NCBI GenBank assembly: GCA_905612265.1
Contig: CAJQRI010000067.1
Coordinates: 1 to 38,328 of the forward strand
Direction: 5' to 3'
Origin: an uncultured Nitrospinota bacterium
Lineage (GTDB): Bacteria; Nitrospinota; Nitrospinia; Nitrospinales; VA-1
DNA length: 38,328 nt
In this document: positions 25,058-27,328 of the stretch, in pieces
Layout: the number at the start of each line of letters is the position of its first letter
Position numbering within the stretch: position 1 is the stretch's first letter
The notes under the pieces: model-generated
What the model was told of the DNA's origin: nothing
Seen by the model: the letters and a program-made list of their open reading frames with translations, nothing else
Database searches by the model: none
Made by a program: the position numbers and the translations under genes

Positions 25058-27328
25058 ATGGCTGAAGAATTTATACCTGAGAATCCACAAAGTTCTACAC
25101 CCTCGGGGAAATCTGGTTTTGACTCCAAAGAATTTAAAGAACTCATTAGTGTTGCTTCTCATGAGCGCAAAAACCTGCAGTTGCTGGTTGAATATTTTGA
25201 AAAAAAATCAGATGAACTGGAAGATAAGAAAAAGTCTTTTGACCGTGTTAGCACTGAGGTGCCCGATGCTCTTAGAAAACTGGATTCGCTTGATGTTCGC
25301 TTTCAAGAGATCAAGAATTTTGATGTCCGGGTGCGTGACTTTCAACTTGTGTCAAAGGAGGTTAACTCTAATTACAACACCCTGAAAAGGGATTTAGAGG
25401 GGTTACATCTTCTTAACGAACATATTGACAGCAAAATTAAAAGCCTGAGTCAGCAAAAGCAAGTTGTTGATAAAGCTAATGAAGATGCCGGTCGCCTGAA
25501 TGTCCTGGTCTGGGACATGGACTCCAAAGTTAAAAAGCTTAGAGAAGAAAGTAAGCTTCTCAAGTCTGCCGATCGCAATATCGATCGACTAGAGCATATG
25601 CTCGATAGTGTTTCGAGTCAGGTACAGGATGTTGTCAACATGAAGGATTTGTTGAGAACTGCCGCTGTTAAAGTCGGAGTCATGAAGGACACTCTGAGCG
25701 AACTCGACACCCGCTATGAGAGGATCAAGCAAGATAAGGAAACTATAGAAAGTCATACTCGGGATACGGAAGAGTTAAAGCATATTCTTGCGAGTGTACA
25801 GTCAGATTATGAAAAACTCCTTGGGCAGAGCCATATGATTAGCGAGACCCAGGAGACTCTTCACAGCCTGATACAACAAATCAGCGAGCTGAAAATCGAA
25901 TCCAAGAATATTTCCGTGAAAAATGAAATGATCCGAAGTATCACCGGACGTTTGCGGGGCTTGGATTCTTTATCTGTGGATGTGGAGACCAAGATAGCCA
26001 GGATCTATGACGAAAAGTCAATGATCGAAAAGACTGAGGAGAAGATACACAAGCTCAATTCTTTTCTGATCGACAATCTCAGCAACAAAATGAAAATTTT
26101 GAAGGATGAGATGAAGGTCATTGATGATGCCTATCAAAAAATGAGCCGCTTTAACGTTATGGCAGAGGAGGCAGAACAAAAGGTCAGACGGCTGGATGAT
26201 GATATGAGGAAGATTGACACCCTCCCTGGAATTCTCAAGCAGGTTGAGTTGATGAGCCAATCCACTCATCAGCAGATGGAAGAAATCATCCGCAAGCAAC
26301 AGCTGGTGGATCAGGTTGATAAAAAATTCGACAATCTCAGTTCGATGGTGATCAGCCTTGATGTGAAGATGGAAACCCAGGTTCAGAGGAAAGCCCTCGT
26401 TGAAAAGATGGAGAAGAAGGTGGACGGGCTGGATTTCTTCATTGAAGAGGCGAACATCAAAATTGCCAAGGTTACCAAGAAAATCGACTTCCTTGAGAAA
26501 GTGGATCAGAAGCTTGAAGACTTAAAGTCCATGGTAAATACCATTGAGGAAAAAATCCTCGATATGGCCAAAGAAAAAGCCGCTATTGATGATCAGGAAA
26601 AAAGGATGAACAATATTTCCTCTAAATTGAGTATTCAGGAAATTGAATTACGTACTCGTTTTAAGGAGGTTCAGGAGTCGAAGGAAGAGATCTCCCGCAT
26701 TGACCAGATTCGCGAAGAACTGGGACAAATAGCTACCAACTTTGAAGGCAAGATGGACGAGTTGAACAAGTGCTCGGGTCAGGTGGAAAAGACAGACTCC
26801 AAACTTCAAGACCTTGATGACATGATGAAGGGTTTGCTCAACAGGCAGGATGCTCTCGATGAAAAGAAGGAACTCATGCTGGATGTTGAAAAGAAAATGG
26901 ACCAACTTAGCAATATGCTAGAGATAACGGAAAAGCGCATCAGTCAGGTTCATGAGGGCGAAGAGAAAATTAATTTCGTCCAGCAGGCTCTAGGTGGACT
27001 TGAGTTGGTTATCAAACGAACGAATATCGAAAAAGCGAGACTTGATAAGGAAAGAGGCAACCTCGACAACATGACCTTGAACATTGAAAAACTGACTAAC
27101 ATTACCGAAGATGCAGAATTAAAAATTGATCAGCTTAATAGCAAAATTAAGGTGCTTGGTGAGGTAGAAAAACGGTTGAGTACCTTAAACCTTCTTGCAG
27201 AGGATGTTAGTGTCAAGATTCAAAACCTCAAGAAAGAAGAAGCCTTATTTGGCAGGGCTGGAGATCAGATCGCAGAATTGAAATTTTTATTAGCTGAAGT
27301 AGAAAGAAAAAAAGAAGACTCGGTATAA
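25058..27328 (+). CDS. 756-aa coiled-coil protein with tandem 31-residue repeats
   Basis: Long Glu/Lys/Leu-rich ORF with no enzymatic motif. Units such as LVEKMEKKVDGLDFFIEEANIKIAKVTKKID / FLEKVDQKLEDLKSMVNTIEEKILDMAKEKA recur every 31 residues. Confidence 0.9.
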   Translation: MAEEFIPENPQSSTPSGKSGFDSKEFKELISVASHERKNLQLLVEYFEKKSDELEDKKKSFDRVSTEVPDALRKLDSLDVRFQEIKNFDVRVRDFQLVSKEVNSNYNTLKRDLEGLHLLNEHIDSKIKSLSQQKQVVDKANEDAGRLNVLVWDMDSKVKKLREESKLLKSADRNIDRLEHMLDSVSSQVQDVVNMKDLLRTAAVKVGVMKDTLSELDTRYERIKQDKETIESHTRDTEELKHILASVQSDYEKLLGQSHMISETQETLHSLIQQISELKIESKNISVKNEMIRSITGRLRGLDSLSVDVETKIARIYDEKSMIEKTEEKIHKLNSFLIDNLSNKMKILKDEMKVIDDAYQKMSRFNVMAEEAEQKVRRLDDDMRKIDTLPGILKQVELMSQSTHQQMEEIIRKQQLVDQVDKKFDNLSSMVISLDVKMETQVQRKALVEKMEKKVDGLDFFIEEANIKIAKVTKKIDFLEKVDQKLEDLKSMVNTIEEKILDMAKEKAAIDDQEKRMNNISSKLSIQEIELRTRFKEVQESKEEISRIDQIREELGQIATNFEGKMDELNKCSGQVEKTDSKLQDLDDMMKGLLNRQDALDEKKELMLDVEKKMDQLSNMLEITEKRISQVHEGEEKINFVQQALGGLELVIKRTNIEKARLDKERGNLDNMTLNIEKLTNITEDAELKIDQLNSKIKVLGEVEKRLSTLNLLAEDVSVKIQNLKKEEALFGRAGDQIAELKFLLAEVERKKEDSV
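25370..27325 (+). repeat. Protein-level tandem repeat, ~21 units of about 31 aa (93 nt)
   Basis: Hand-segmented residues 105-756: unit lengths 31x7, 32, 31x5, 38, 28, 31x5, 27 (sum 652, equal to the residues available). Confidence 0.85.

Follow-up and report, generated by a model that had tools for sequence, protein, structure and literature searches.

A long coiled-coil rod protein of Nitrospinota with a 31-residue, nine-turn repeat

The FilP and Scy proteins of Streptomyces are long bacterial rods with a non-heptad coiled coil (PMC9858780). FilP forms striated filaments (PMC6599971) and shows that bacterial rod-domain coiled coils can form filaments (PMC2680258); Scc of Leptospira, as it is cited in the same paper, is a filament-forming rod-domain coiled coil as well. 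SF-assemblin, which makes striated fibres, consists of consecutive 29-residue units, each of four heptads and a skip residue (PMC8435291). Stammers are described as less common than stutters and as destabilising in general (PMC5940361).

We analysed a window of 38,328 nucleotides from an uncultured Nitrospinota bacterium, which encodes a long rod that resembles each of these systems in part. FilP and Scy are hendecad-rich (11/3 = 3.67 residues per turn, nearly straight) and have a DivIVA-like N-terminus, whereas the window protein has 31/9 = 3.44 residues per turn and appears overwound. Its measured period was 3.456 residues, and a Pfam scan of the protein gave no DivIVA match. Like SF-assemblin, it is a rod of fixed units whose length is not a multiple of 7. 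However, SF-assemblin is eukaryotic, its units have 29 residues, and it carries a skip instead of a stammer equivalent, so that its coil deviates from the heptad in the other direction. The arms of SMC and Rad50 gave weak whole-protein matches through their coiled coil. Membership in that family was rejected because the window protein has no ATPase head (Walker A and B) domains, scored 42.8 against the SMC_prok_B cut-off of 567, and differs from the SMC period of 3.50. It is a long coiled-coil rod without other known domain, which is what the definition of bacterial intermediate-filament-like proteins in PMC2680258 asks for.

The rod gene and its 31-residue period

The coding sequence starts with ATG and spans 25058-27325 of the forward strand, on which all features below lie; with the stop codon (27326-27328) the open reading frame covers 25058-27328. 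It encodes 756 residues. Orthologs have 79-89% identity to it in the genus and 31-42% across the phylum, and the nearest named records match over the full length at 85-89%. The earlier note had read 25370-27325, corresponding to residues 105-756, as a coiled coil of tandem 31-residue units. Autocorrelation of hydrophobic residues (ILVMF) over residues 60-756 had its top lag at 31 (about 0.50-0.51, z 12.5 versus permutations), with further peaks at 62 and 93 and a lower one at 124. BLOSUM62 self-similarity had the same top lags of 31, 62 and 93, with z scores of 13.1, 11.8 and 8.8. The Fourier spectrum showed one dominant peak at 3.456 residues (31/8.97), that is, 31 residues per 9 turns. Nine homologs, down to ~25% identity, all had periods of 3.455-3.457.

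As a control, we measured both SMC arms in eight genomes of the phylum. They had a period of ~3.50 and gave 0.00-0.14 at lag 31 and clear peaks, of ~0.14-0.38, at lags 28 and 35. The rod protein gave 0.15 at lag 28 and 0.05 at lag 35. Thus, the rod pattern is not that of an ordinary heptad coil. The 31-residue unit of the earlier note is real: its lag-31 peak has no counterpart in the SMC arms, a single period dominates the spectrum, and more is present than the mere 3.5-residue period of coiled coils.

An independent dynamic-programming segmentation on a profile divided residues 74-756 (25277-27325) into 22 consecutive units, and 19 of the 21 complete ones had exactly 31 residues. Because this cut penalises other lengths and thereby favours 31, it is the spectrum that gives an unbiased result. 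The exceptions were a 32-residue unit (residues 322-353, 26021-26116) and a 35-residue unit (residues 478-512, 26489-26593). In the local phase analysis the former carried the larger phase slip (~-95 degrees) and the latter a second one (~-50 degrees). The earlier cut had 17 of 20 complete units at 31; its neighbouring units of 38 and 28 residues, slightly farther along the chain, contain the same 4-residue excess as our pair of 35 and 31. The phase was locked to 31/9 over three stretches (about residues 45-300, 360-500 and 555-740) and slipped near residues 130, 330 and 520. Most local period estimates lay within 3.42-3.47; those at the N-terminus and close to the slips were higher.

On an ortholog-weighted profile the hydrophobic positions of the unit were 2, 5, 9, 12, 15/16, 19, 23 and 26, which bears out the positions listed earlier with 15/16 in place of 16. 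Position 30, on the ninth turn, was polar (76% K/E/N/R/Q/D/S/T). Residue identity at lag 31 was 15.0%, versus 12.3% in class-preserving shuffles (z 2.6); the repeat is carried mostly by the residue-class pattern. A recent tandem duplication at the DNA level was ruled out, as no tandem arrays are left in the DNA.

Conserved blocks and near-frozen length

Residues 1-44 (25058-25189) comprise a variable N-terminal head and the first part of a conserved ERKNLQLLVEYFEKK segment (residues 36-50), in which E36, R37, K38 and L40 are invariant in an alignment of orthologs (A1). The most conserved part of the protein is a signature block, QQ(R/K)xxV(E/D)KANE(E/D)xG(R/K)LNxLxWDM(D/E), at residues 133-160 (25454-25537), with the top conservation peak at residue 143. 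It is common to the proteins of another phylum described below and keeps many invariant columns in an alignment at ~25% identity (A2). A central block occupies residues 416-515 (26303-26602; LVDQVDKK..LSSMVISLDVKMETQ..RK..EKMEKKVDGLDFFIEEAN..EEKILD..KEK..IDDQEKRM), with conservation peaks at 438 and 504 and invariant columns in A1. A C-terminal block at residues 715-745 (27200-27292; LNLLAEDVxVKIxNLK...AGxxIAELKFLL) peaks at 717 and 741 and has invariant columns in A1 and A2. Gly145, Gly457 and Gly735 are 97-100% conserved. The signature block holds Gly145 and Trp152 as invariant residues within an otherwise fast-changing rod. Pro69 (25262-25264), near the start of the repeat, is the sole well-conserved proline of the rod, being kept in 97% of those aligned sequences with a residue at this site; an 11-residue deletion has removed the stretch from two sequences.

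Length varies among orthologs mostly in the N-terminal head and the C-terminal tail. Down to 35% identity, the aligned orthologs had no internal indel in residues 45-752, apart from that 11-residue deletion near residue 61, deletions of 65 and 7 residues in one genus, and a single-residue deletion (L014). The 65- and 7-residue deletions define a rod variant in two genomes of genus g14 (L026 in G037, L027 in G034); several other members of g14 had no match to the gene.

The rod had 0.73 gap openings per 1000 aligned residues (13 pairs, 36% mean identity). SMC from three genomes opened 16 gaps over 3567 residues at 35-38% identity, a rate of about 4.5 per 1000 and ~six-fold above that of the rod at equal identity. 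HemL and Asd had zero gap openings at 60-65% identity, and thus a low indel rate alone is not unusual for well-conserved proteins. The near-frozen length of the rod in Nitrospinota points to a strong constraint on its length or phase but by itself is no proof of a ruler. The selection on length that the earlier note had suggested is upheld to this extent.

Relatives, genomic context and gene loss

We found the rod gene in 44 of 59 Nitrospinota genomes (E <= 0.001), one of which, G012, has only a relic. Besides the Nitrospinota members, a scan of genome contigs matched three loci at 23-25% identity (L086, L087 and L088; 889, 892 and 912 aa), whose genomes all fall within one small phylum-level group of ten genomes. 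Each of the three proteins has a period of 3.455 and a lag-31 peak, and they have the block QQR.IVEKANEEAG.LNVLFWDME in common with the window protein. There was no spirochaete locus among the matches of this one scan, and a plasmid collection gave no match to the window protein or to L087. Locus L065, in a record titled Candidatus Dadabacteria UBA1144, encodes a rod protein 57% identical to the window's; at that identity the record appears to be a Nitrospinota contig, either mislabelled or contaminated.

The NCBIfam models of SpiroCoCo, a spirochaete family, were just out of reach of the window protein, which scored 119.3 bits against SpiroCoCo_C (NF047515, cut-off 125) and 59.4 bits against SpiroCoCo_N (NF047514, cut-off 75). 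L071, L081, L086, L087 and L088 passed the SpiroCoCo_C cut-off with 134-174 bits, and L081 alone passed that of SpiroCoCo_N (83.2 bits). Such whole-protein scores add up many stretches and are inflated for repetitive proteins; we therefore tested the register of the SpiroCoCo_C alignments. On Nitrospinota orthologs, 114 of 132 alignment ends shared just two registers modulo 31, offset by ten residues, and thus the SpiroCoCo_C model has the same 31-residue repeat. Compared through these models, SpiroCoCo shares with the rod a long coiled coil in a fixed 31-residue register; it differs in that the window protein stays just under the cut-offs and the Nitrospinota members have ~756 residues. We regard the rod protein as closely related to the SpiroCoCo family, itself uncharacterised. 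The earlier note recognised no described family with this architecture, a view that is thereby only half right. A literature search, mostly without subscription journals, found no publication on SpiroCoCo, on a 31-residue coiled-coil repeat or on Nitrospina coiled coils.

The window protein also scored 59.4 against the LA_3659 family (NF047516, cut-off 36), with its best stretch at residues 510-595 of 756. This is a 221-position model, and the score is identical to that of SpiroCoCo_N; generic coiled coil that recurs along the protein is the probable cause of the pass, which was not used for family assignment.

In Nitrospinota the rod gene lies between asd and mtnP-hemL, with mtnP-hemL downstream even in most deep branches. 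In the other phylum it stands beside unrelated genes (polysaccharide deacetylase, RseC, PFK). Since the neighbours are housekeeping or unrelated genes, the context gives no function. The gene is missing from several near-complete Nitrospinota genomes and has been lost repeatedly in the phylum. At L132, asd adjoins mtnP with no room for it. The relic of G012 (L133:2815-3063) sits between intact asd and mtnP and consists of the start and about a dozen codons fused to a C-terminal remnant with an early stop; it looks like a recent internal deletion. Taken together, these absences show that the rod gene is dispensable in some lineages and not essential everywhere. In G012, flhA is also split, in two pieces with stops. 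MreB was found in all 59 genomes and is uninformative for co-occurrence.

Geometry and possible roles of the rod

With 9 turns per 31 residues, the supercoil would be tighter than that of a heptad coil, and left-handed. If the free helix has 3.62-3.64 residues per turn, the calculated pitch is 64-71 residues (~10 nm), against 91-106 for heptads. One 31-residue unit would then measure ~4.6 nm, or about half a supercoil turn, and the whole rod ~100 nm. The overwound geometry is well supported by the period, and with 3.44-3.46 residues per turn the overwound left-handed coil with one stammer equivalent per unit, as put forward in the earlier note, holds up. A run of ~21 stammer equivalents is unexpected and counts against such a coil, given that stammers are described as rare and destabilising (PMC5940361).

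The a positions of the unit (2, 9, 16 and 23) are rich in Ile and Val (I+V 0.42, L 0.17) and the d positions (5, 12, 19 and 26) in Leu (L 0.37, I+V 0.30); each unit has one polar a-type layer, at position 30. Ile/Val-rich a positions and Leu-rich d positions are a trait of parallel dimers, and the core composition would suit a parallel dimer. AlphaFold2, run with an alignment as input, predicted nearly all helix at low confidence (mean pLDDT 65, pTM 0.18), with breaks near conserved glycines at 146-149, 297-304 and 456-461; a segmented or folded-back rod is possible on account of these breaks. A single-sequence search of the PDB gave no relatives at E below 0.2. The profile search gave only marginal coiled-coil matches (keratin 5, a designed protein and the sigma-1 outer capsid protein), which we did not take as homology. 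Neither a Pfam scan nor NCBIfam profiles of the window protein revealed a catalytic domain.

The explanation that we prefer, at about even confidence, is a cytoplasmic structural rod or filament built as an overwound parallel-dimer coiled coil. The protein would be an all-helical, homodimeric rod, most likely a parallel coiled coil, in which 9 turns about the partner helix, with eight hydrophobic layers and one polar, make up a unit of 31 residues. The three most conserved blocks (133-160, 416-515 and 715-745) are probably contact sites. The rod might be a structural scaffold or polymerise in the manner of intermediate filaments, and its job is probably structural; dimerisation, orientation, cytoplasmic location, assembly and function are what we infer here.

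The same features could be read in other ways. If the protein were a molecular ruler or tether, fixed length would be its function, and its ends and conserved blocks would bind different partners ~100 nm apart. The near-frozen length at 31-42% identity and the placement of discrete conserved blocks in the N-terminal third, the centre and the C-terminus speak for this. However, continuous coiled coils, SMC included, resist indels anyway, one genus lacks 65+7 residues, and the relatives outside the phylum have 889-912 residues, so that there is no universal length; we regard a fixed ruler, as the earlier note suggested it, as rather unlikely. Alternatively, the chain could double back at the conserved glycines into an antiparallel bundle of four or five ~150-residue arms, ~22 nm long. 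The AlphaFold2 breaks near 146, 300 and 458, together with low confidence near 640, are about five units apart, and Gly145, Gly457 and Gly735 are almost fully conserved. Yet the confidence of the model is very low, and a long coiled coil that is predicted as a single chain is prone to fold back so that its core is buried. The 31/9 phase, moreover, passes 146 and 458 without a large break, and only ~300 is close to a major slip. A folded rod therefore seems unlikely to us.

A scaffold associated with motility or the cell pole, working with the flagellar apparatus, was suggested by gene content: an intact flhA match was lacking in 6/16 rod-less versus 3/42 rod-bearing genomes (Fisher p 0.0096), in an exploratory test that ignores phylogeny, genome reduction and incompleteness and whose hypothesis was picked after looking. 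G012 combines the rod relic with the split flhA, and SpiroCoCo is named for spirochaetes, which are motile bacteria. On the other hand, flhA is present in ten genomes without the rod and missing from three with it, and we saw no flagellar genes around the rod gene. The link to flagella is thus weak, and this role is improbable. Finally, the protein could be an ordinary heptad coil in which the 31-residue spacing is a by-product of duplication without geometric meaning. Coiled-coil proteins often expand through internal duplication, and residue identity between units is modest; but every homolog tested had its dominant period at 3.456 instead of 3.50, and locally the values stayed mostly within 3.42-3.47 while SMC of related genomes gave 3.50, which makes this account very improbable.

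Returning to the structural rod, we suggest tentatively, and with some doubt, that the proteins form a phylum-crossing structural family with a continuous, genetically fixed 31/9 overwound coil of ~21 units; because each unit is close to one half-turn of the supercoil, it would determine lateral contacts or the spacing of the assembly. If this is true, a continuously overwound coil would be a stable, selected architecture over ~700 residues and across phyla, to ~25% identity. The rod would be a natural test case for coiled-coil theory and would connect Nitrospina and its relatives to the uncharacterised SpiroCoCo proteins of spirochaetes. A charge-stagger analysis of rod orthologs gave no clear preferred stagger; charge had a weak period of 15.7 residues, or half a unit (family mean 37.2 versus a null 95% level of 33.2).
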